Assembly (NCBI RefSeq): GCF_016907975.1 | Contig: NZ_JAFBCY010000001.1 | Span: 558,001-622,000, forward strand | Direction: 5' to 3' | DNA from: Methylopila capsulata | Lineage (GTDB): Bacteria; Pseudomonadota; Alphaproteobacteria; Rhizobiales; Methylopilaceae | Length of the DNA: 64,000 bases | In this document: positions 1-63,180 of the stretch, piece after piece | Position numbering within the stretch: the first letter of the stretch is position 1 | How the letters are laid out: each line of letters starts with the position of its first letter | Made by a program: the position numbers and the translations under genes | The notes under the pieces: model-generated | The model's input: only the letters and a program-made list of their open reading frames with translations | Told to the model about the DNA's origin: nothing | Databases searched by the model: none

Positions 1-1892
<1,892 letters not shown>

Positions 1893-52365: not shown

Positions 52366-52495
52366 TTTCCCCTGTCGCCACGATGACATAGTGTTCTTTC
52401 CGCGGCGTTGCGGGGCTGTTAACTCGGGCGCAGGATGGTCTTGACGAATGAGTCGTGGGCGGACGGGCCCGGCTTTCGTCGTTGAGGATCAGCAC

Positions 52496-54484
52496 ATGGT
52501 CGGTGCGGGACGACCTTTATCGCGCGGAGCGAAGGGCGCCGCGACGGCCCTTCCGCATCTGATCCGAGCCGATCAGCTCACCGCCGTGCGACGCAGCGTG
52601 CTTCTGTCGATCCCCGTCAACGTGGCGTTGGGGATCATGTCCGCTTTGGTGGCCTGGAACTCCGGCGCGACCACGGCCGGGCTGCTGTGGTTCGCCGCAT
52701 CCTGCGTTCCCAACAGCTTCCGCATGATGCTCTGCCGACTGCCGGAGACGACGGATCCGGCAGCCGTCGATCGACGCTTGCGACTGCACTCGGCGGCCGC
52801 GCTGTCGTCGGGTCTGGTCTGGGCGTTCATCCCGACGCTCTGCGCCGGCTACACGTCGCCCCAGACGCTGTTCTACCTGATCGTGGTGAGCGGGATCACC
52901 GCGGGCGCCGTCACGCACGGTTTCGCCTATGCGCGCATCCCGACCGGCTTCATCACGCCGCCGCTTCTGTCCGCGGCGGGTTGCCTGTTCTACGCGGGCG
53001 GCTTCGACCGCGTGTGTCTCGGCGCGACCGTCGTTCTCTATCTCGCGGCCCTGATCCGGGCCTGCCGGGAAGGCGAAGGCCTCATGCGAGAGACCAGCCG
53101 GCTGAAGAACGAGGCGACCTTTCTCGCGACGTCGCTCGAGGGCGCGCACGACGCGGCGACGGAGATCGCCGAGGAGATGACCCGCCGGGCCTCGCGCGAC
53201 GCGCTGACCGGCCTGCTCAACCGCAGCGGCTTCCTGGAGGAGGCGGAACGGCGGGCGGCGATCGCGCAATCGCCGCTGAGCCTGCTGTTGCTCGACCTCG
53301 ACGGCTTCAAGGCGGTCAACGACACCTACGGCCATAAGGCCGGCGACAACGTGCTGATCGAGGTCGCGCGTCGCCTGCGGCTCACGCTGCCCAGTTCCTT
53401 CGCGGTGGCGCGGCTCGGCGGAGACGAATTCGCCGTGCTGTTCGAAATGGGCCTCGTCGACGTCAACCCGACGCTCCTCGCGCACGAGTTGATCGCCGCC
53501 ATCACGATCCCCTTCGCGGCCTTCGACGCCGGCCGCATCGGCGTCAGCATCGGCGTTCACGTGTCGACGGCGCCGGCGATCGACGAGATGCTGATCTCGG
53601 CCGACGCGGCGCTCTATGCGGCCAAGGTCGCCGGCCGAAACCGGTGCTACGTGTTCGACGCGGAGCTCGCGCACCATATCGCGATGCGCCGCGACATCGA
53701 GCGCGATCTCGGCAAGGCTTTGGCGGAGGGCGGCCTCGAGGTCTGGTATCAGCCGGTCATGGTCGACGGCGGGGCGCGCTTCGGCGGCTTCGAAGCGCTC
53801 GCGCGCTGGCGCCACCCGCGACACGGCTGGATCGCGCCTCCGGACCTGATCGCCTCGGCCTCGCTCGCAGGCTTCGGCGAGCAACTGTTGCGCTTCATCC
53901 TGAGCGACGTCTGCGTCACCATCCTCGCCATGCGGGAGATCGGCCTCGGCGGCGCCCGCGTCGCGATGAACGTCTCGCCCCGCGAGATGTCGCAGATCGC
54001 CGTGGACGAACTGGTGCTGAAGGACCTGAAGGCGCGCGGCGTTCCGCCGTCCATGCTCGAGATCGAGATCACGGAGGAGACCGCGCTCGACATCCAGGCG
54101 GTGCGCGGCAAGCTCGCCGCCTTGTCGGAAGCGGGCGTCAGCGTGGCGATCGACGACTTCGGCGTGGGGTACTCCTCGCTTGGAGCGCTTCGGCGGCTTC
54201 GGGTGGACCGGGTGAAGATCGACCGCATCTTCGTCGAAGGCGTGTCCCGGTCCACCGAGAACCGCAGCCTGGTGCTGGCGATCCTCAGCCTCGCCGGCCC
54301 TCTCGGCTTCGAGGTTGTGGCCGAAGGCATCGAGCATGAGGACGACCTCGAGACGATGCGGGAGCTGGGCTGCAAAGCCTTCCAGGGCTACCTGATAGCC
54401 CGGCCGATGCCGCGCAACGAAGCGCTGCGGTGGGCGCGCGCGCATGCGAACGCCATGCCCGCCCGCCCGGCGCCGCGCCGCTGA
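52496..54484 (+). CDS. Membrane GGDEF-EAL cyclic-di-GMP protein
   Basis: 662 residues from ATG 52496 (GAGG 9 bases upstream; ATG 52448 is an alternative). Residues about 30-190 have five or more hydrophobic segments, followed by a short coiled stretch. The GGDEF domain is intact (LGGDEF, 307-312), so cyclase activity is possible. The EAL domain has FEALARW (EAL 433-435), NVSPREM, EITEE, DDFGVGYSSL, KIDRIF and EGIEHEDD, the residues needed for phosphodiesterase activity. Both activities therefore look possible. No periplasmic sensor domain is recognised. It is the last gene before the antitermination operon. Confidence 0.92.
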   Translation: MVGAGRPLSRGAKGAATALPHLIRADQLTAVRRSVLLSIPVNVALGIMSALVAWNSGATTAGLLWFAASCVPNSFRMMLCRLPETTDPAAVDRRLRLHSAAALSSGLVWAFIPTLCAGYTSPQTLFYLIVVSGITAGAVTHGFAYARIPTGFITPPLLSAAGCLFYAGGFDRVCLGATVVLYLAALIRACREGEGLMRETSRLKNEATFLATSLEGAHDAATEIAEEMTRRASRDALTGLLNRSGFLEEAERRAAIAQSPLSLLLLDLDGFKAVNDTYGHKAGDNVLIEVARRLRLTLPSSFAVARLGGDEFAVLFEMGLVDVNPTLLAHELIAAITIPFAAFDAGRIGVSIGVHVSTAPAIDEMLISADAALYAAKVAGRNRCYVFDAELAHHIAMRRDIERDLGKALAEGGLEVWYQPVMVDGGARFGGFEALARWRHPRHGWIAPPDLIASASLAGFGEQLLRFILSDVCVTILAMREIGLGGARVAMNVSPREMSQIAVDELVLKDLKARGVPPSMLEIEITEETALDIQAVRGKLAALSEAGVSVAIDDFGVGYSSLGALRRLRVDRVKIDRIFVEGVSRSTENRSLVLAILSLAGPLGFEVVAEGIEHEDDLETMRELGCKAFQGYLIARPMPRNEALRWARAHANAMPARPAPRR

Positions 54485-54513
54485 CGGCGAGCATCGCCCC
54501 GCCAACTTTGGCG

Positions 54514-54542
54514 TTGACGGCGCGCGGCTCGGCGCCTAGCGT
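54514..54542 (+). promoter_or_regulatory. Candidate promoter of the amiC-amiR-hyu operon
   Basis: TTGACG (54514-54519), a 17-base spacer, then TAGCGT (54537-54542). The -35 is good and the -10 weak. It would place the RNA start near 54549, immediately before the attenuator hairpins, so the first terminator lies at the very 5' end of the transcript. Confidence 0.45.
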
Positions 54543-54550
54543 CTGCCTCA

Positions 54551-54567
54551 GGAGCAAAGGGAGCTCT
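54551..54567 (+). promoter_or_regulatory. Putative ANTAR antiterminator hairpin, leader 1
   Basis: GGAGC-AAAGGGA-GCTCT can fold as a 5-bp stem with a 7-base loop. Its 3' side (54563-54567) lies within the 5' arm of the terminator at 54560-54601, so the two structures exclude each other. The loop has A at position 1 and G at position 4, like ANTAR target loops, although those are usually six bases. Confidence 0.55.
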
Positions 54568-54601
54568 CGCCGGTTCTGCCCGGCGGGAGCTCCTTTTTTT
54601 T
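54560..54601 (+). terminator. Strong attenuator terminator ahead of amiC-like gene
   Basis: 14-bp stem (GGAGCTCTCGCCGG/CCGGCGGGAGCTCC, one G-T pair), loop TTCTGC and eight T. It is upstream of the first gene of the operon, 20 bases from its start, so it must be bypassed for expression. Confidence 0.9.
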
Positions 54602-54620
54602 GTGCTTGAGGCGGAAGAGC

Positions 54621-55784
54621 ATGGCGTTCGACACCACCAAGCCGTTGATCGTTGGCGCGCTGTATTCGGCGACCGGCCCGACGGCCTATCTCGAGCGCAC
54701 CCAGCTCAACGCGACGCTGCTCGCGATCGAGGAGGTCAACGCCACCGGCGGCGTGGCCGGCCGCGAGGTCGTTCCCGTGACCTACGACGCCCAGTCCGAC
54801 CCGGCGCGGTTCGCGAGCCTCGCCGAGCGCATGCTGGACGAGGACGGCGCCGGCCTGCTGGTCGGCTGCTACATGACCAACACGCGGCAGGCGGTGGTGC
54901 CGATCGTCGAGCGACGCGGCGCGGTGCTGGCCTACGCCGCGCCCTACGAGGGCTTTGAATACTCGCCGAACGTGATCTACGGCGGGGCGGTGCCGAACCA
55001 GCACATCCTGCTGCTGGCGCGGCATCTGATCCTCAACGCCGGCAAGAGCTTCTATCTCGTCGGCACCCGCTACACCTTCCCGGTCGAATCCAACCGGGTG
55101 ATGATGACCCTGGTCGCGGAGCAGAAGGGGCAGACGCTGGCCGAGCGCTACGTGCCGCTCGACGCCTCCCGCCGGGAGCTCGACCAGATCGTCCAGGACA
55201 TCAAGAAGAAGAAGCCGGACGTCGTGTTCTGCACCGTCGTCGGCGAAGCCGCTGTGCGGTTCTACGAGCTCTGCGCCGAAGCCGGGCTGACCGGCTCCCT
55301 GACGATCGCGAGCCTGACCGTCACCGAAGCGGAAATCGCGGCGATGCCCGCCGGCCTCGCCGTCGGCCACCTCACCGGCGCCACCTATTTCCAGTCGATC
55401 GACAGCCCCGAGAACCGGCGCTTCGTGCGCGCCTACCAGTCCCGCTTCGGCGTGCACGAGCGCCTGAACGCCATGGCCGAGACCGCCTACAGCGTGACGC
55501 GCATGACGCTCGACGCCGTCGGTCGCGCCCGGTCCGTCGAACCCCGGGACATCCGGTCGGCGCTCGGCGAAACGAGCTTCCTCGCGCCGCAGGGCGAAAT
55601 CCGGATCGACGCCGAGAACGGCCACTCCTACCTCTGGCCGCGGATCGGGCGCGTCGAGGCGGACGGCCAGTTCACGGTGCTCGAGCAGAGCGTGCAGGCG
55701 ATCAAGCCCGACCCCTACCTGATCCACCACAGCCTCGAGGACTGGGCCCCCGCGCCCGCCCCCGCGCGCGCGACGGGGGGCTGA
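54621..55784 (+). CDS. AmiC-like cytoplasmic amide/ligand-binding regulator
   Basis: 387 residues of the type I periplasmic-binding fold (UrtA/AmiC group): PLIVGALYSATGPTAYLERTQLNATLLAIEEVNATGGVAGREV, ASLAERMLDEDGAGLLVGCYMTNTRQAVVPIVERRGAVLAYAAPYEG, and the C-terminal EIRIDAENGHSYLWPRIGRV. It starts at ATG 54621 with no signal peptide, as in Pseudomonas AmiC, which is cytoplasmic and sequesters AmiR until an amide binds. Six bases separate it from the ANTAR gene. The natural ligand is probably a substrate or product of the hydantoinase-like enzymes downstream. Confidence 0.88.
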   Translation: MAFDTTKPLIVGALYSATGPTAYLERTQLNATLLAIEEVNATGGVAGREVVPVTYDAQSDPARFASLAERMLDEDGAGLLVGCYMTNTRQAVVPIVERRGAVLAYAAPYEGFEYSPNVIYGGAVPNQHILLLARHLILNAGKSFYLVGTRYTFPVESNRVMMTLVAEQKGQTLAERYVPLDASRRELDQIVQDIKKKKPDVVFCTVVGEAAVRFYELCAEAGLTGSLTIASLTVTEAEIAAMPAGLAVGHLTGATYFQSIDSPENRRFVRAYQSRFGVHERLNAMAETAYSVTRMTLDAVGRARSVEPRDIRSALGETSFLAPQGEIRIDAENGHSYLWPRIGRVEADGQFTVLEQSVQAIKPDPYLIHHSLEDWAPAPAPARATGG

Positions 55785-55789
55785 CCGGC

Positions 55790-56380
55790 ATGCTGAAGGC
55801 CCTCCGCGACCTTCGGAACGTCCGCGTGGTGGTCTATCACCCGAAGGACCGCGAGCGCGACGAACTGGTCGACCAGATCCGCCGCATCGGCTGCAACGTC
55901 GAGGCCGTGTGGCCGCCGCGGGACGCGATCCCCTCGGACGCCGACATCGTGTTCATGCTGTTCCGGCAGGACGGATTCACGCACGTCCTGCTGAAGGCGC
56001 TGGCCGAGCGTGACGCGCGCGTGACCCTGGTCGCGATCGTGGAGTTCGAAAGCCCGGCCGTGATCGAGGCGGTCGCCCGCGCCGGCGCCGCCGCAATCGT
56101 GACGAAGCCGATCCGCGCCTTCGGCCTTCTGACCAGCATCGTCATCGCCCACACAATTTCCTCTAAAGAGAAAATCCTTCTTGACAGAGTTCGCAAGCTT
56201 GAGGCACGGTTGGAAGGCTTCAGGAAGCTTGAGAAAGCGAAGCAAATACTGATGTCCCGCAAGGGATTATCTGAACAAGAGGCGTATGAGACCATACGCT
56301 CTCGCGCAATGACTGCGCGAATTACTATGGAGATCGTCTGCGAGACGATCATTAACGCTGAGGAATTCGTGGGTTTCTGA
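55790..56380 (+). CDS. AmiR-like ANTAR antiterminator
   Basis: 196 residues. The N-terminal part (about 8-115) is a receiver-like fold without a recognisable phospho-acceptor Asp at the usual place (VFMLFRQDG), as in AmiR, so control is by protein binding rather than phosphorylation. A coiled-coil helix (LLDRVRKLEARLEGFRKLEKAK) leads into the ANTAR domain KAKQILMSRKGLSEQEAYETIRSRAMTARITMEIVCETII, with the family's spaced Ala and Arg residues. It binds leader RNA to prevent termination. It is followed by the second attenuator. Confidence 0.92.
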   Translation: MLKALRDLRNVRVVVYHPKDRERDELVDQIRRIGCNVEAVWPPRDAIPSDADIVFMLFRQDGFTHVLLKALAERDARVTLVAIVEFESPAVIEAVARAGAAAIVTKPIRAFGLLTSIVIAHTISSKEKILLDRVRKLEARLEGFRKLEKAKQILMSRKGLSEQEAYETIRSRAMTARITMEIVCETIINAEEFVGF

Positions 56381-56462
56381 CCCGTCCGGCGCAGAGCGCG
56401 CCGACCGGAAACGCCACGTCCACATAAGTCCGCGCGCGCCAGAGATCGTCGCCAGCGGACAC

Positions 56463-56477
56463 CGGCCAAGGGAGCCG
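56463..56477 (+). promoter_or_regulatory. Putative ANTAR antiterminator hairpin, leader 2
   Basis: CGGC-CAAGGGA-GCCG forms a 4-bp stem. The loop shares AAGGGA with leader 1, and its 3' arm (56474-56477) is the start of the terminator's 5' arm. An upstream hairpin GGCGC-AGAGC-GCGCC (56388-56402) could be the partner stem-loop that ANTAR targets usually have. Confidence 0.55.
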
Positions 56478-56509
56478 TCGCCAGCATCATCGCTGGCGGC
56501 GGCTTTTTT
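56474..56509 (+). terminator. Attenuator terminator between amiR-like gene and hyuA
   Basis: 12-bp stem GCCGTCGCCAGC/GCTGGCGGCGGC (one G-T pair), loop ATCATC, then six T. It sits within the operon 57 bases before hyuA, separating the regulatory genes from the catabolic genes. Confidence 0.9.
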
Positions 56510-56565
56510 CGTTTTCACGGCCTGCGCGACGCACGGCGCCCGCGGCCCGCCATGAGGAGCCAGAG

Positions 56566-58623
56566 ATGACTCAAGCGATTGACGTGGAGGACCGCAGGGT
56601 CCGCGTCGCCTGCGACGTGGGCGGCACGTTCACCGACATCTGCGTGCTGAGCGAGGCCACCGGCCTGATGCACGTCGCGAAGGTGCCGACCACGCCGGAC
56701 CCGATCGACGGCGTGCTGGCCGGCATCGACGCCGGCGGCGTGAACCTGAACGATCTGCTGCTGTTCAAGCACGGCACCACGCTCGCCACCAACGCGCTGA
56801 TCACCCGCCGCTTCCCGCCGGCCGTGATGGTCACCACCAAGGGCTTTCGCGACACCATCGAGATCCGCCGCGGCAACCGCGACGACCTCTGGGACACCTA
56901 CAAGGAGATGGCGAAGCCCTACATCCGGCGTCGCGATCGCCTGGTGGTGACCGAGCGCACCGACTACTCCGGCGCCATCGTCGCGCCGCTGGACGAGACG
57001 GAGGCGGCCGAGCTCGCCCGCGTGATCAAGAAGCGCGGCGTGAAGACCATCGCGGTCTGCTTCGCGAACTCGTTCATCAACCCGGCCAACGAACAGCGGA
57101 TGCGCGACATCCTGGCCGAGGCGATCCCCGACGCGACGATCTCGATCTCCAGCGACATCATGCCGGAGATTTTCGAGCACGAGCGGTTCTCGACGACGGT
57201 CGCGAACGCGGTGCTGGCGCCGGTCGTCGGCCAGTACGCCAGCCGTCTCGAGAGCCGCATGAAGGCCGGCGGCTACAAGGAGGACGTGCTGCTGCTGCAT
57301 TCCGGCGGCGGCGTCATGACCGCGAAGATGGCCGAGCGCTACGCGGCGCGCTTGTCGGCCTCCGGCATCGCGGCCGGCGCGATCGCCAGCCGCTTCGTCG
57401 CCGAGCAGGCCGGGTTCAAGAACTCGATCGGCCTCGACATGGGCGGCACCTCCACCGACGTCTCGCTGTGCGACAACGGCGAGATCAACGTCACCAAGGA
57501 GTGGTTCGTCGAGTACGGCTACCCGATCTGCTTTCCCTCGATCGAGGTGCTGACGATCGGCGCCGGCGGCGGCTCGCTGGCCTGGATGGACGCCGCCAAC
57601 TCGTTGCGCAACGGCCCGCAGTCGGCGGGCTCCACGCCTGGACCCGCCTGCTACGGCCGCGGCGGCGAGAACCCGACCAACTGCGACGCCAACGTCGTGC
57701 TCGGCCGCCTCAGCGACCAGCTCGCCGGCGGCAAGGTCTCGCTCGAGAAGGGCCTCGCGACCGAGGCGATCCGCAAGGGCGTCGCCGAGCCGCTCGGCAT
57801 GTCGGTCGAGGACGCCGCGCTCGCGATCCTGAAGGTCGCGAACGCCAACATGGCGGACGCCGTCCGCCTGCTCTCGATCCGTCGCGGCTACGACCCGCGC
57901 GACTTCGCGCTGGTCGCCTTCGGCGGCGCGGGGCCTCTCCACGGCGCGGCGCTCGCCAAGGATCTGGCGATCCCCGTCGTGCTGGTGCCGCCGAACCCGG
58001 GCGTGACCTCGGCGCTCGGCTGCCTGCTGGTCGACATCCAGCACGACATCTCGCGGATGTACCTCGCGAAGGCCGAGGAGGTGAACGTCTCCGACCTCGA
58101 GACGACCTTCCGCGAGCTGGAGATCGAAGGCCGCGAGCGGCTCGTCACCGAGGGCGTGACGCCGGAGAACATGGTGTTCCAGCGCAAGATCGACATGCGT
58201 TACCACGGCCAGTGGCGCGCGCTGTCGATCAACATCGCCTCGCCCGTCGTCTCGCTCGACGAGTCGATCGCCTACTTCCACGAGGAGCACGGCCGCGAGC
58301 ACAACTACTCGCGTCCCGGCGCGCCCGTCGAGATCTACCGCGTCAGCGTGATCGCGACCGGCGTCACCTCGAAGGCGAAGTTCGCCGACTTCGATCCCGT
58401 CGACGCCGAAGCGACGCCCGTCGGCACGCGCCGCGTCCGCTTCGACGAGCTGCCGGAGACGATCGACGCGCCGGTCTATGACCGGGCGGCGCTCCAGTCC
58501 GGGATGAAGGTCGCCGGCCCCGCCGTGATCGACCAGCTCGACTCGACGGTGATCGTGCCGCCCGGCGTCACGGCGGAAGTCGACCGCTCCCTCACCCTCG
58601 TCATGCGCATCCCGCTGGCCTGA
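56566..58623 (+). CDS. Hydantoinase/oxoprolinase subunit A (HyuA-like)
   Basis: 685 residues of the HyuA/N-methylhydantoinase A family, the ATP-binding subunit. The N-terminal ASKHA phosphate motif is VRVACDVGGTFTDICVL, then FKHGTTLATNALI, NSIGLDMGGTSTDVSL (second phosphate motif), LTIGAGGGSLAWMD and AFGGAGPLHGAAL. Enzymes of this family open hydantoins, N-methylhydantoin or 5-oxoproline, or carboxylate ketones, using ATP. Which one applies here cannot be read out. A GAGGAG site precedes the ATG. First structural gene after attenuator 2. Confidence 0.92.
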   Translation: MTQAIDVEDRRVRVACDVGGTFTDICVLSEATGLMHVAKVPTTPDPIDGVLAGIDAGGVNLNDLLLFKHGTTLATNALITRRFPPAVMVTTKGFRDTIEIRRGNRDDLWDTYKEMAKPYIRRRDRLVVTERTDYSGAIVAPLDETEAAELARVIKKRGVKTIAVCFANSFINPANEQRMRDILAEAIPDATISISSDIMPEIFEHERFSTTVANAVLAPVVGQYASRLESRMKAGGYKEDVLLLHSGGGVMTAKMAERYAARLSASGIAAGAIASRFVAEQAGFKNSIGLDMGGTSTDVSLCDNGEINVTKEWFVEYGYPICFPSIEVLTIGAGGGSLAWMDAANSLRNGPQSAGSTPGPACYGRGGENPTNCDANVVLGRLSDQLAGGKVSLEKGLATEAIRKGVAEPLGMSVEDAALAILKVANANMADAVRLLSIRRGYDPRDFALVAFGGAGPLHGAALAKDLAIPVVLVPPNPGVTSALGCLLVDIQHDISRMYLAKAEEVNVSDLETTFRELEIEGRERLVTEGVTPENMVFQRKIDMRYHGQWRALSINIASPVVSLDESIAYFHEEHGREHNYSRPGAPVEIYRVSVIATGVTSKAKFADFDPVDAEATPVGTRRVRFDELPETIDAPVYDRAALQSGMKVAGPAVIDQLDSTVIVPPGVTAEVDRSLTLVMRIPLA

Positions 58624-58661: not shown

Positions 58662-60683
58662 ATGTCCGCTAACATGGACCACGGCCTCGATCCGGTCACC
58701 TTCGAGGTCCTCAAGAACGCCTACGTCAACATCGTCGACCAGATGGCGGAGCAGATCTTCCGAACCTGCTACTCCTTCGTCATCTGGTCGCGCGACTTCT
58801 CCTCCGCGCTCTGCGACGCCAACGGCGACACCATCATGCAGGGCTCGGGCGACATCGCGGCCCATGTCGGCACGCTGCACTACACCGCCAAGGCCGTGAT
58901 CAACGCCTTCAAGGGCGACATCCACCCCGGCGACGTGTTCGTCGTGAACGACGTCTACCAGGGCGGCACCCACTTCAATGACACCCGCATCGTGCGGCCG
59001 ATGTTCTACCAGGGCGAGCTGCTCGGCTTCGCCCAGGCGAACGGCCACTGGGCGGACGTCGGCGGCGCGACGCCGGGCTCGTTCAACGTCAACGCCATCG
59101 ACCACATGGCCGAAGGGCTGCGCATCACGCCCGTCCGGGTGTGGAGCAAGGGCCAGTGCCTGCACGACGTCTGCAACCTGATCGCCTCCAACACCCGCGC
59201 GCCGGCCGACATCATCGGCGACATGGAGGCCCAGGCCGAGGCGACCAAGGTCGCCGAGCAGGAGGTCTGCCGCCTGATCGAGAAGTACGGCCTCGACGTC
59301 ATCAAGACCTCCTTCGGGGCGGTGCAGGACTACGTGGAGACGCTGACCCGCCAGCGCGTGTCGGCGCTGCCGGACGGCGTCTGGGAGACCGAGGACTACA
59401 TCGACCTCGATCCCGGCGTCGGCGAAGGCCTGATCCCGATCCGCGTGCGGATGACGATCAAGGACGACACCGTCCACTACGACCTGTCGAAGTCGCACCC
59501 GACGAGCATCCGCTGCTTCCTCAACGCCTGCTTCGGCGGCTCGTTCGCCGCGATCGTCGCCGGCACCAAGATGCAGTTCCCGGAGATCCCGCTGAACTCC
59601 GGCTTCTACCGGGTCGTCACGGTGGATCTCGGGCCGGCAGGGTCGGTCGTGAACGCCGCCTGGCCGACGCCGGTCGCGGGCTTCTGCTCCGGCCCGTTCG
59701 AGAAGATCATGAACTCGATCTTCGAGCTCTGGGCCGAAGTGATGCCGGAGCGGGCGATGGCCTGCACCTTCAACCTCGACTACCTGCTGATCGGCGGCCA
59801 GGACAAGCGCGACGCCTCCGGCGGCCACAAGTACTTCATGTGGTACGACTGGATGGTCGGCGGCTGGGGCGCTCGCAACGGCCGCGACGGCTGGGCGGCG
59901 ACCGGCCCGGTGTTCGGCGTGCAGCTCGGCACCCAGCCCTTCGAGGGCCAGGAGCGGCTCGCGCCGGTTCTCACCACCTGCCACGAGCTGCGCGTGGATA
60001 GCGGCGGCCCCGGCGAATCCCGCGGCGGCATGGGCGTCGACAAGGGCGTCATCCTCACCAAGGTCGACCGCACCGTCGTCTCCTACTGCTGCGACCGCGA
60101 ACGCTCCATCACCTGGGGCCTCTGGGGCGGCCTGCCCTCGATCCCGCACGGCGTGTGGGTCAACGAAGGGCTGGAGAACGAGCGCTATCTCGGCTCGATG
60201 TTCTCGAACGAGTCGCTGTCGCCCGGCGACGTCGTCAGCCGTCCCTCGGCCGGCGGCGGCGGCCTCGGCGACCCGCTTGAGCGCGACCCTCAGCTCGTCT
60301 GCGAGGACGTGGCCGACGGCTACGTCTCGATCGAGCGGGCCGCGATCGACTACGGCGTGGTGGTCAAGGAGGTCGACGCCGACCTCGCCGACTACGTCGT
60401 CGACCGCGAGAGCACGCTCGCCAAGCGCGCCTACATCCGCGCCAACCGCGGCAAGTGGCTGGACGAGGACGCCGGCGCGATCGCCGCGAAGTACCGGGCG
60501 GGCGAGCTCGGCACGCTCGACCTCATCCGCCAGTACGGCGTGATCGTGAACTGGGGCTCGGGCGAGCTGCTCGAAAAGACCACCCAGCAGTTCCGCGCCA
60601 TGCTGAAGCGCCGCACCTCCCCGTACTGGAGCCAGCGCATGCAGCCCGGCCAGGACGCGACGGTCTCCCTCAAGGTGGCCTGA
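58662..60683 (+). CDS. Hydantoinase/oxoprolinase subunit B (HyuB-like)
   Basis: 673 residues of the HyuB family, the hydrolytic partner of HyuA. Visible are DPVTFEVLKNAYVNIVDQMAEQIFRTCYSFVIWSRDFSSALCDANG, QGSGDIAAHVGTLHYT, DVFVVNDVYQGGTHFNDTRIVRP, NGHWADVGG and the Gly-rich RPSAGGGGLGDPLERDP. Residues of the putative metal site (DVYQGGTHFND and HWADVGG) are conserved. AGGAG precedes the ATG. The longer-than-usual C-terminus is within family range. Confidence 0.92.
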   Translation: MSANMDHGLDPVTFEVLKNAYVNIVDQMAEQIFRTCYSFVIWSRDFSSALCDANGDTIMQGSGDIAAHVGTLHYTAKAVINAFKGDIHPGDVFVVNDVYQGGTHFNDTRIVRPMFYQGELLGFAQANGHWADVGGATPGSFNVNAIDHMAEGLRITPVRVWSKGQCLHDVCNLIASNTRAPADIIGDMEAQAEATKVAEQEVCRLIEKYGLDVIKTSFGAVQDYVETLTRQRVSALPDGVWETEDYIDLDPGVGEGLIPIRVRMTIKDDTVHYDLSKSHPTSIRCFLNACFGGSFAAIVAGTKMQFPEIPLNSGFYRVVTVDLGPAGSVVNAAWPTPVAGFCSGPFEKIMNSIFELWAEVMPERAMACTFNLDYLLIGGQDKRDASGGHKYFMWYDWMVGGWGARNGRDGWAATGPVFGVQLGTQPFEGQERLAPVLTTCHELRVDSGGPGESRGGMGVDKGVILTKVDRTVVSYCCDRERSITWGLWGGLPSIPHGVWVNEGLENERYLGSMFSNESLSPGDVVSRPSAGGGGLGDPLERDPQLVCEDVADGYVSIERAAIDYGVVVKEVDADLADYVVDRESTLAKRAYIRANRGKWLDEDAGAIAAKYRAGELGTLDLIRQYGVIVNWGSGELLEKTTQQFRAMLKRRTSPYWSQRMQPGQDATVSLKVA

Positions 60684-60860
60684 CCCGAGCGGGGAGGAGC
60701 GGCCTTGAGCGCCCCTCCTCTCCGCTGTTTTGCGTCCGAGGCGGCGAAGACCGCCCGGACCCCCGAGAGGAACGCCTCCACGCCAACGCGGTACGGCGCC
60801 GGCCGATCCCGGCGAACGAAAACGTCACGTCGCGTCGCACGACGGGCTCAGGGGACGACC

Positions 60861-62105
60861 ATGACCGATTTCAGCCGCAGGACGCTTCTCAAGACCGCCG
60901 CCGCGGGGGCGGCGCTGGGCCTCGCGCCCGCCTATCTCCGCCACGCCTCGGCCGCGGAGCCGATCCAGGTGGCCGGCATCCACGACGCCTCGGGCGGCAT
61001 CGACATCTACGGCCGGCCGATGATCAACAGCCTGGCGCTGGCGGTCGAGGAGATCAACGCGGCCGGCGGCGTGCTGGGCCGCCCGATCGCGCTGAAGAAC
61101 TACGACCCGCAGTCGAACATGCAGCTCTACACGCAGTACGCGACGGAAGCGGCCACGAAGCAGAAAGCCTCGGTGGTGTTCGGCGGCATCATCTCGGCCT
61201 CGCGGGAGGCGATGCGCCCGACGCTCCGGCGGTTCCGCACGCCCTATTTCTACAACATGCTCTACGAGGGCGGCGTCTGCGACCGCAATGTGTTCTGCAT
61301 GGGCTCGACGCCGGCGCAGACGCTTCAGAAGTTCACGCCCTTCGTGATGAAGCGCTTCAACGCGAAGACGATCTATGTGCTGGCGGCCGACTACAACTAC
61401 GGCCAGATCACCACCAAGTGGATCCGCAAGTTCGCCTCCGAGAACGGCGGCGCGGTCGCGCAGGCGGACTTCTTCCCGCTCGACGTCAACGACTTCGGCC
61501 CGACGATCCGCAAGATCCAGGCGGAGAAGCCCGACATGATCATGTCCGTGCTGGTCGGCGCCGCGCACAACTCGTTCTACCGCCAGTGGGTCGCGGCCGG
61601 CATGAAGGACAAGATCCCGATGGCCTCGACCACCTTCGGCATCGGCAACGAGCAGGTCCTGACCTCGCCCGACGAGCACAACGGCATCGTGGTGTCCTAC
61701 GCCTACTTCGACGGCCTCAAGACGCCCGAGAACGAAGCCTTCCTGAAGAAGTACACGGCCCGCTTCGGCGAAAAGGCGGACGCGGTGACCGAGGCCTCGG
61801 CGATGACCTACCACGCGGTCAACCTCTGGGCCGCGGCGGCCGCCAAGGCCGGCAGCGTAGACCGCGACAAGGTCATCCTCGCGCTCGAGAGCGGCCTGTC
61901 GTTCACGGGACCCGCGGGCAAGACCACGATCGATCCCAAGACCCATCACGACACGCTGGACACCTACATCGCCGAGGTGCGGGACCGCGCCTACCACGTG
62001 CTGGAAAGCTTCCCGCAGCAGCCGCCGGCCGACACCGCGGCCGTATGCGATCTCGCGGCGAGCCCGAACGAGACCAAGCAGTTCGTCATAGACGTGAAGA
62101 GCTGA
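60861..62105 (+). CDS. Urea/amino-acid-type ABC transporter binding protein, Tat signal
   Basis: 414 residues of the UrtA/Leu-Ile-Val-binding type. The N-terminus SRRTLLKTAAAGAALGLAPAYLRHASAA is a twin-arginine signal. The mature part shows HDASGGIDIYGRPMINSLALAVEEINAAGGVLGRPI, GGIISASREAMRPTL and VLAADYNYGQITTKW. It is homologous in fold to the AmiC-like protein at the head of the operon, the usual relation between an ABC binding protein and its cytoplasmic sensor. It lies 177 bases after hyuB in the same direction. Confidence 0.9.
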   Translation: MTDFSRRTLLKTAAAGAALGLAPAYLRHASAAEPIQVAGIHDASGGIDIYGRPMINSLALAVEEINAAGGVLGRPIALKNYDPQSNMQLYTQYATEAATKQKASVVFGGIISASREAMRPTLRRFRTPYFYNMLYEGGVCDRNVFCMGSTPAQTLQKFTPFVMKRFNAKTIYVLAADYNYGQITTKWIRKFASENGGAVAQADFFPLDVNDFGPTIRKIQAEKPDMIMSVLVGAAHNSFYRQWVAAGMKDKIPMASTTFGIGNEQVLTSPDEHNGIVVSYAYFDGLKTPENEAFLKKYTARFGEKADAVTEASAMTYHAVNLWAAAAAKAGSVDRDKVILALESGLSFTGPAGKTTIDPKTHHDTLDTYIAEVRDRAYHVLESFPQQPPADTAAVCDLAASPNETKQFVIDVKS

Positions 62106-62132: not shown

Positions 62133-62252
62133 TGCGTACTTCGAGACGGCCCTACGGGCCTCCTCAGCCTGAGGACCCTTTGGGGGTGAAGCGGCGCTCC
62201 CCCTCCTCATGCTGAGGAGCCTCGCGAACAGTGAGACGTCTCGAAGCACGCA
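62133..62252. repeat. 120-base element with 16-base terminal inverted repeats
   Basis: Terminal arms at 62133-62148 and 62237-62252 match in 15 of 16 positions (CTTCGAGACG core). Inside are two more hairpins, CCTCAGCCTGAGG and TCCTCATGCTGAGGA. It lies between the binding-protein and permease genes. The sequence type is known from intergenic regions of many Rhizobiales; no coding sequence is inside. Confidence 0.8.
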
Positions 62253-62313
62253 CTCATCTGACGCGGCCCCCTGTCGCTTGCGCCGAAGCTCCGCCGCATT
62301 CTGGAGACGAACC

Positions 62314-63180
62314 TTGGACTATGCGCTCATCGTCATCCTGCAGCTCGTCGTGACCATCGCCAACCTCGCGCTCATCAGCGCGGGGCTGGCGGTGATCTTC
62401 GGCATGATGCGGATCATCAACATGGCCCACGGCGAATTCCTGATGCTCGGGGGCTACGCAGCGCTGGTCTCGCACCAGGCGGGGCTCAATCTCTGGCTCG
62501 CGATCTTCGTGGCGGCGCCGGTCACGGTCGGCCTCATCGGCGCCGTGCTGGAACGCCTCGTCATCCGGCGGCTCTACGGGCGGATGATCGACACCATGCT
62601 TGCGACCTGGGGCGTCAGCCTCGCGCTCGTCGGCGTCGTCACGGTGATCTTCGGCAACCGCGTCTCCGGCATCTCGCCGCCGCTCGGCAGCGTTCCGATC
62701 GGCGGCTACGCCATCGGCCTCTATGAACTGCTCACCGCCGGCGTGACCGCGCTGCTCTTCCTCGGCGGATGGATCGTGCTGAGGCGAACCCCGGTCGGCC
62801 TCATCGCCCGCGGCGCCATGCAGAACCGCGAAATGGCGGCGGCGCTCGGCGTCGATCCCGCCAGGGTCTACGCCACGACCTTCGTGACCGGCGCCGCGAT
62901 CTCAGGGCTCGCTGGCGCGCTGATCGCGCCGATCACGGGCGTCGCGCCCTCCATCGGCTCGGTCTACATCGCCAAGGCCTTCATCACCGTGATCTCCGGC
63001 GGAACCGCGATCCTGACGGGGGCCCTCAGCGCGTCGGCGCTGCTGGGATCGGTCAACACCGCCTTCTCCTTCGTCATGACGCCGGTGCTCGGCGAGGTCG
63101 CCCTGCTCGCGGCCGCCGTGCTGCTGCTGCGCGTGCTGCCGCGGGGGATCACCGGCCGCTTCTTCCGGAGGTCGCTGTGA
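62314..63180 (+). CDS. Branched-chain amino acid/urea-type ABC permease (LivH/UrtB)
   Basis: 288 residues from TTG 62314, chosen because GGAGA is about 8 bases upstream and the product then starts at the first transmembrane helix; the open frame upstream runs through the repeat element. About eight hydrophobic segments are seen, with the family features INMAHGEFLMLGGYAAL, TWGVSLALVGV and RAMQNREMAAALGVDPARVYATTF-type EAA region (GAMQNREMAAALGVD). Transport substrate is inferred to be a hydantoin, oxoproline or related amide. Confidence 0.9.
   Translation: MDYALIVILQLVVTIANLALISAGLAVIFGMMRIINMAHGEFLMLGGYAALVSHQAGLNLWLAIFVAAPVTVGLIGAVLERLVIRRLYGRMIDTMLATWGVSLALVGVVTVIFGNRVSGISPPLGSVPIGGYAIGLYELLTAGVTALLFLGGWIVLRRTPVGLIARGAMQNREMAAALGVDPARVYATTFVTGAAISGLAGALIAPITGVAPSIGSVYIAKAFITVISGGTAILTGALSASALLGSVNTAFSFVMTPVLGEVALLAAAVLLLRVLPRGITGRFFRRSL

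Follow-up and report, generated by a model that had tools for sequence, protein, structure and literature searches.

A 64,000-nucleotide (nt) stretch of the Methylopila capsulata genome, here called the window, probably carries an amide-responsive antitermination operon in which two intrinsic terminators controlled by the antiterminator AmiR stand in series behind a single promoter. In plus-strand order from position 54514, a promoter-like sequence is followed by a first terminator with an overlapping hairpin (gate 1), amiC, amiR, a second such unit (gate 2), hyuA, hyuB, and the genes for a substrate-binding protein and a permease; all features of the operon given below lie on the plus strand. 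ANTAR proteins are described as stabilizing a hairpin, P2, and thereby preventing formation of the terminator, and the loops they recognize as needing A in the first and G in the fourth position (A1/G4) (PMC3369931, PMC3369936, PMC8934654 and PMC5821096).

The original prediction, made from the letters of this DNA, held that each of two strong terminators is overlapped by a mutually exclusive hairpin with the loop AAAGGGA or CAAGGGA, and folding confirmed this. The terminator of gate 1 (54556–54601, T-run at 54594–54601) has a stem of 18 base pairs (bp) and eight T residues, and the segment 54550–54602 folded at −34.5 kcal/mol with a z score of −5.8, which none of 200 shuffles equalled; these and the following energies are equilibrium values, whereas the decision at a gate falls during transcription. 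The P2 hairpin of gate 1, GGAGC-AAAGGGA-GCTCT (54551–54567), was the minimum-energy fold when the RNA was ended at 54573 (−5.7 kcal/mol), and its stability did not exceed that of shuffles of the same stretch (z 0.09). The terminator of gate 2 occupies 56468–56509 (T-run at 56504–56509), and the segment 56400–56514 folded at −53 kcal/mol (z −3.9; 0 of 200 shuffles equal). Its P2 hairpin, CGGC-CAAGGGA-GCCG (56463–56477), is supported by folding, covariation and conservation in orthologs; the folding program slightly favoured a 4-nt loop with a bulged A over the 7-nt loop. At both gates, in the window as in its orthologs, the 3′ arm of P2 lies inside the 5′ arm of the terminator, so that P2 and the terminator are mutually exclusive. 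A 15-base pattern drawn from both gates, AARGGAGCYNTCGCC, had two exact matches in the 4.1-Mb genome, namely the gates themselves, and 14 matches with one mismatch, compared with nine for a reversed control pattern. This distribution would fit a private two-site regulon.

Both gates were found in all seven distinct amiC-amiR-hyuA loci that were compared, the window included: the window locus (L008), L005, L009, L011 and L012 of the same genus, L013 of another family in the same order, and L006 of Methylobacterium. L005 originates from Methylopila sp. Yamaguchi, and its AmiR is 97% identical to that of the window; its gate 2 was seen in a separate terminator scan, the loop-classifying script having paired its terminator differently. 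The hyuA starts of the orthologs were read by eye. L010 (on the same contig as L005), L002 to L004 (repeats of other loci) and L001 (a distant ANTAR gene without amiC) were excluded. The genomes searched were samples rather than an exhaustive set: 397 genomes from the order, 18 from the family, 385 from the class, 5 from the family of genome G050, 398 from the phylum, and 396 from the order recentred on G050. The recentred sample overlapped the earlier one and gave no new ortholog, a contig scan of genomes with AmiR gave three relatives, and in a plasmid search with AmiR all 173 matching records were below 60% identity, with no ortholog among them.

Alignment of the seven loci revealed structure-keeping changes at gate 2. 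Over the 14 pairs of its antiterminator (P2 together with a further hairpin upstream, P1), 96.9% of the cells were paired and the covariation score was 0.272 compared with 0.187 for shuffled alignments, neither value being reached in any of 500 shuffles. Double-sided changes were seen in four of the 14 pairs, a number reached in 38 of 500 shuffles, and the P1 helix by itself had three doubly changed pairs out of ten with 97.1% of cells paired. When the antiterminator was slid out of register, only 26–58% of the cells paired. In the gate 2 terminator, two of 13 pairs were doubly changed. In each listed gate, every position of the arm common to P2 and the terminator, with at most one exception, can pair in both structures; because overlap with the terminator was a criterion by which the script picked P2, this shows consistency and is not independent proof.

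The original prediction assigned one small hairpin to each terminator, which holds for gate 1 but missed P1 of gate 2 (56428–56460). This hairpin comprises a lower stem GTCCGC/GCGGAC, an upper stem GCG/CGC and the A1/G4 loop AGAGAT (56441–56446). The P1 loops of relatives (AAAGGT, ACCGAT and AACGTT) all have A1 and G4, and that of L006, GAAGGTC, fits in a shifted register. Judged from its sequence, gate 2 belongs to the classical dual-hairpin ANTAR targets. Rfam did not recognize either gate: no ANTAR-type family was found in the whole window at gathering scores or in 54400–56700 at E values up to 5. The seven-base loops singled out by the original prediction are real in the window, where A1 and G4 are present within the 7-nt loops, but they are not the distinguishing feature, since the gate 1 loop has six nt in four of the seven orthologs.

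Gate 1 differs from this arrangement in that no conserved P1 was found in any of the seven orthologs, a promoter-like sequence filling its place in each of them. In the window, the putative −35 (TTGACG, 54514–54519) and −10 (TAGCGT, 54537–54542) elements, 17 nt apart, predict a transcription start site at about 54549–54551. All seven orthologs have TTGAC[GC], a 17- or 18-nt spacer and [TG]A[GA]CnT, a pattern that was fitted to the seven orthologs themselves, and in all of them the −10 element ends 7–8 nt upstream of the P2 stem ([AG]GAGC or GGAAGC). The generic pattern TTGACN-16..18-TAnnnT was present in six of the seven orthologs and occurred six times in 928,000 nt (464 kb on both strands, window included). 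Because the promoter-like sequence abuts P2, the predicted transcript would start at P2, or no more than about two bases from it, and leave no room for P1. Only in L012 did gate 1 have an A1/G4 hairpin upstream, which overlaps its −35 element.

The P1-less P2 hairpins of gate 1 in the orthologs have 5–6 bp and −5.0 to −8.1 kcal/mol, as against 3–5 bp and −1.7 to −4.1 kcal/mol for the gate 2 P2 hairpins of the same operons; elsewhere, P2 averaged 3.05 bp in 38 distant gate 2 elements and ranged from 3 to 5 bp in seven distant gate 1 elements. Read by eye, gate 1 of L006, L011, L013 and two distant loci, L023 and L026, agrees exactly with the loop consensus AGCAANGRRGCUY of the Enterococcus faecalis eut leaders (PMC3369931), and gate 1 of the window agrees with it apart from one extra A. 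We infer that gate 1 is a reduced ANTAR target that lacks P1 and whose longer P2 directly adjoins the start site. It may further be, although we would stop just short of an even chance, that gate 1 is a minimal ANTAR switch, in which one hairpin at about +1 to +18 of the transcript suffices for AmiR-dependent antitermination, promoter proximity and the longer P2 replacing P1; a one-hairpin autoregulatory gate and a two-hairpin output gate would then be read by the same protein.

The identity of the presumed regulators was confirmed as predicted, with an ANTAR protein encoded between the gates. The amiR gene (55790–56380) encodes a pseudo-receiver and ANTAR antiterminator protein, in which both domains were detected (Pfam AmiR_N, 1.3e-37; ANTAR, 9.1e-14), and its product matched Pseudomonas AmiR (1qo0_D) with an E value of 4.2e-28 and EutV (6wsh) with one of 8.7e-10. 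The adjoining amiC (54621–55784; Pfam Peripla_BP_5, 1.9e-117) by homology encodes the ligand-sensing negative regulator of AmiR, and residues 7–378 of its product align with AmiC (1pea/1qo0; E value 2.6e-88). By these alignments, the two proteins are clearly homologous to AmiC and AmiR of Pseudomonas. Among the residues named as RNA contacts of EutV (PMC8934654), K147, R168, M172 and R175 are retained in AmiR of the window, and K143, N173 and R177 are replaced by R, T and T, respectively, as placed by hand on the alignment.

In the mechanism that we propose, transcription would start from the single promoter directly before gate 1. In the absence of an inducer, AmiC would hold AmiR, most transcripts would stop at gate 1, and leakage would provide a little AmiC and AmiR. 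Binding of the AmiC ligand, probably a cyclic amide such as a lactam or hydantoin, would free AmiR, which would bind the P2 loop at the extreme 5′ end of the nascent RNA and block terminator 1, increasing amiC-amiR expression by positive feedback. AmiR would then bind P1 and P2 of gate 2, allowing the polymerase to reach hyuA-hyuB and the ABC transporter genes. AmiR may thus open both gates and hence regulate its own synthesis. Since the regulator genes lie behind one gate and the structural genes behind two, the structural genes should respond more steeply.

Several observations weigh against this scheme. Deletion of P1 abolished induction of E. faecalis eutP (PMC3369931), so that AmiR may fail to act on a gate without P1; the EutV dimer touches one hexaloop at a time, and P1 has been called a recruitment hairpin (PMC8934654). 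The P1–P2 linker of gate 2 is 2 nt long when the lower stem is counted and 10 nt when the upper hairpin alone is considered, compared with 5–12 nt in eut. The seven orthologs are few and form a single clade, and three of them share 97–100% AmiR identity; the P1-less gate 1 therefore counts as one evolutionary event, not seven. Covariation in relatives, put forward with the original prediction, is thin at gate 1 P2 (one of four pairs doubly changed; 62 of 500 shuffles as high) although it was borne out at gate 2, and there further pair types did not exceed those of shuffled alignments for either the antiterminator (450 of 500 as high) or the terminator (500 of 500). By the rule of the script, A1 is absent from the loops of L012 gate 1 (GAAGGG), L011 gate 2 (TAAGAGA) and L006 gate 2 (TGTGAGA), and many distant gate 2 P2 loops have G4 and not A1. 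Gate 1 of the distant locus L026 bears a P1, yet its P2 has 5 bp and −5.6 kcal/mol, and P2 length is thus no clean divider between P1-less and P1-bearing gates. Finally, in a background scan of 464 kb of this genome, which contained 21 strong terminators including the two gates, a strict P2-like hairpin (A1/G4, at least 4 bp) accompanied two of the 19 others, and looser rules gave four (A1/G4, 3 bp), three (G4 only, 4 bp) and five (G4 only, 3 bp). The two strict cases follow genes that, from their translations, we take to be mscL-like and ferredoxin-reductase-like. A P2-like hairpin alone is therefore neither rare nor significant, and the case is carried by conservation, covariation and context.

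These points bear on three other explanations of the two gates. Gate 1 could be a constitutive attenuator that sets a low basal level of amiC-amiR, with its P2-like hairpin unused by AmiR and gate 2 alone regulated. The missing P1 in all seven orthologs, the loss of eutP induction and the occurrence of P2-like hairpins at between two (strict rule) and five (loosest rule) of the 19 other terminators would agree with this; we nevertheless consider it unlikely, because all seven orthologs retain P2 with a stem never shorter than that of their gate 2, because the exact pattern shared by the P2 elements occurs only at the two gates genome-wide, and because distant gate 1 elements also carry P2, four of the seven with a clear P1. 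It is far less probable still that the terminator before amiC belongs to the GGDEF-EAL gene upstream (52448–54484) and overlaps P2 by accident. This terminator does lie about 70 nt 3′ of that gene on the same strand, but the conserved promoter-like sequence sits between the gene and the terminator, so that amiC transcripts starting there must cross the latter, and the terminator, P2 and promoter are kept in L006, L011, L012 and L013 despite an upstream sequence that is dissimilar by eye.

The remaining explanation concerns the order of the gates rather than their nature: a promoter inside amiR could feed gate 2, making the gates parallel and the structural genes independent of gate 1. TTGAC-type patterns are indeed present in amiR of L006, L012 and L013, 251–309 nt before the terminator, so that a purely serial arrangement is not certain, and in the orthologs, markedly so in six of the seven, amiR is AT-rich where it encodes the ANTAR domain. 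No TTGAC-type pattern was found in amiR of the window, L005, L009 or L011, however, no conserved internal promoter was found before gate 2, and the synonymous sites of the ANTAR-coding part show no consistent excess of conservation over the remainder; we regard parallel gates as doubtful. Two AmiR-controlled gates in series remain the reading that we prefer.

The same design was looked for among 57 AmiR-like loci, consisting of the seven orthologs and 50 more distant loci. Gate 2 was found in 45 of the 57 (L005 counted by hand) and gate 1 in 14, each of which also has gate 2; the script required G at position 4 of the P2 loop, so that G4 is partly built into these counts. Among the distant loci, gate 2 follows amiR in 38 of 50 and gate 1 precedes amiC in seven (L016, L018, L023, L026 and L047 to L049). 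Gate 1 may be undercounted, since some loci lack the full upstream stretch or amiC (for example, L017, L056 and L060). On the AmiR tree the loci with gate 1 fall into four groups, namely the orthologs, L016/L018, L023/L026 and L047 to L049, which requires at least four gains or losses. Gating of amiC-amiR and again of the structural genes is therefore recurrent and not peculiar to this genome. Unlike in the window, the −10 element lies 31–36 nt upstream of P2 in all seven distant gate 1 elements, and an A1/G4 P1 is clearly present between promoter and P2 in L016, L018, L023 and L026. A hairpin occupies this position in L047 to L049 as well, but its loop is less canonical; the one in L048 was detected by script, and the other two were read by eye. 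The distant P1 hairpins, a short motif, were aligned poorly by MAFFT.

Two further features of these loci were observed. A hairpin with an A1/G4 hexaloop, its loop 15–64 nt past the gate 2 terminator, was present in 14 of 44 AmiR loci compared with 0.46 expected from composition shuffles (L014 to L016, L018, L019, L022, L023, L026, L038 to L040 and L047 to L049, of which L038 to L040 and L047 to L049 are near-copies); none was found in the six orthologs examined. It mostly resembles CCGAC-AGGGAT-GTCGG with varying loops and flanks, L014 being of another type, and could serve, on transcripts that have passed the terminator, as a sponge for AmiR or as a site where it is handed over. In addition, three tandem hairpins were seen by eye before the gate 2 terminator in L028, L030, L032, L034, L037, L043, L045, L046, L056 and L058 (for example, GAGC-AGGTTT-GCTC, GGC-AGGGCT-GCC and GGC-TATGTA-GCC), the upstream loops mostly keeping A1 and often lacking G4.

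Downstream of gate 2, hyuA (56566–58623; Pfam Hydantoinase_A, 1e-83) and hyuB (58662–60683; Hydantoinase_B, 4e-146) encode subunits resembling those of the ATP-dependent hydantoinase/oxoprolinase/caprolactamase family. The best NCBIfam match of HyuA was caprolactamase alpha at 514.5 bits, and HyuB scored 340.2 bits, both far below the cut-off of 1000, so that neither was assigned as a caprolactamase. They are followed by genes for an ABC substrate-binding protein (60855–62105; Peripla_BP_6, 4.5e-77), an ABC permease (62209–63180; Pfam scan), a second permease (from about 63177 to beyond the window end) and then an ABC ATPase, read on L093. The operon probably serves the breakdown of a cyclic amide. 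About 2.4–8.9 kb beyond the window end (L093:3414–9916), a second cluster contains a Peripla_BP_5 binding protein, ABC ATPases and a gene of the FmdA_AmdA formamidase family. We rejected a terminator-like hairpin downstream of hyuB (60688) as a possible third gate, since it lacks A1/G4 and its counterpart in L005 has no T-run; L006 was checked for two exact strings only.

The AT-rich part of amiR is the one that encodes the ANTAR domain (56153–56380 in the window), and its GC content is 0.13–0.22 below that of the N-terminal part in six of the seven orthologs, 0.08 below in L006 and at most 0.11 below in distant loci. A hidden cis element in this part was set aside because codon identity at unchanged residues was inconsistent: compared with the N-terminal part it was higher in four of 11 pairs, each of which involved L006, equal in two and lower in five. 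Synonymous-site conservation does not account for the AT-richness. A hairpin, GGCGC-AGAGC-GCGCC (56388–56402), lies directly 3′ of the amiR stop codon, where the differing sequences of relatives also look foldable by eye. The genome that carries the window at G000:C1:558001-622000 holds further AmiC-AmiR loci at G000:C2:25432-26013 (L039) and G000:C3:698157-698717 (L044), each with its own gate 2 and different loops, and a fourth ANTAR gene at C4:184923. L039, L044 and the window locus form a natural set for studying ANTAR specificity.

Among the titles and abstract openings of the open-licence papers listed by literature searches, no report was found either of an ANTAR gate that lacks P1 and abuts its promoter or of how this hyuAB operon is controlled. 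A conserved natural P1-less gate beside a P1-bearing gate for one protein would allow the need for P1 to be tested within a single operon, gates in series would be a compact way to steepen the response of structural genes relative to regulators, and the AmiR tree has four distinct groups with a gate before amiC. Among known systems, the amidase operon of Pseudomonas aeruginosa shares with the operon of the window AmiC and AmiR homologs, a terminator overlapped by an ANTAR hairpin and the theme of amide catabolism. In P. aeruginosa, however, the target is the leader before amiE, the first gene (PMC3369936), whereas in the window the regulator genes come first, a gate lies on either side of them, and hyuAB and the ABC transporter genes follow. 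The leader of Klebsiella nasF, controlled by NasR, has the same P1/P2 logic and the same A1 and G4 loop residues (PMC3369936), but one leader is described, the sensor is a NIT domain and the pathway is nitrate assimilation. Several gates also occur in the eut locus of E. faecalis, controlled by EutV/EutW, in which four ANTAR-controlled terminators lie in one locus, with the ANTAR protein encoded within loci of this type (PMC5821096), and whose loop consensus recurs in gate 1 of several relatives of the window. Each of the four eut leaders contains both P1 and P2 (PMC3369936), in contrast to gate 1 of the window; constitutive promoters are present in three of the four eut upstream regions (PMC5821096), as opposed to one predicted promoter before gate 1; and the eut signal passes through phosphorylation, whereas that of the window would, by homology, pass through AmiC. 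The two hairpin–terminator pairs proposed by the original prediction are present in all seven loci, but loci with several ANTAR-controlled terminators were already known from eut (PMC3369931, PMC5821096), and the two-gate circuit of the window is thus a new case of a known design.

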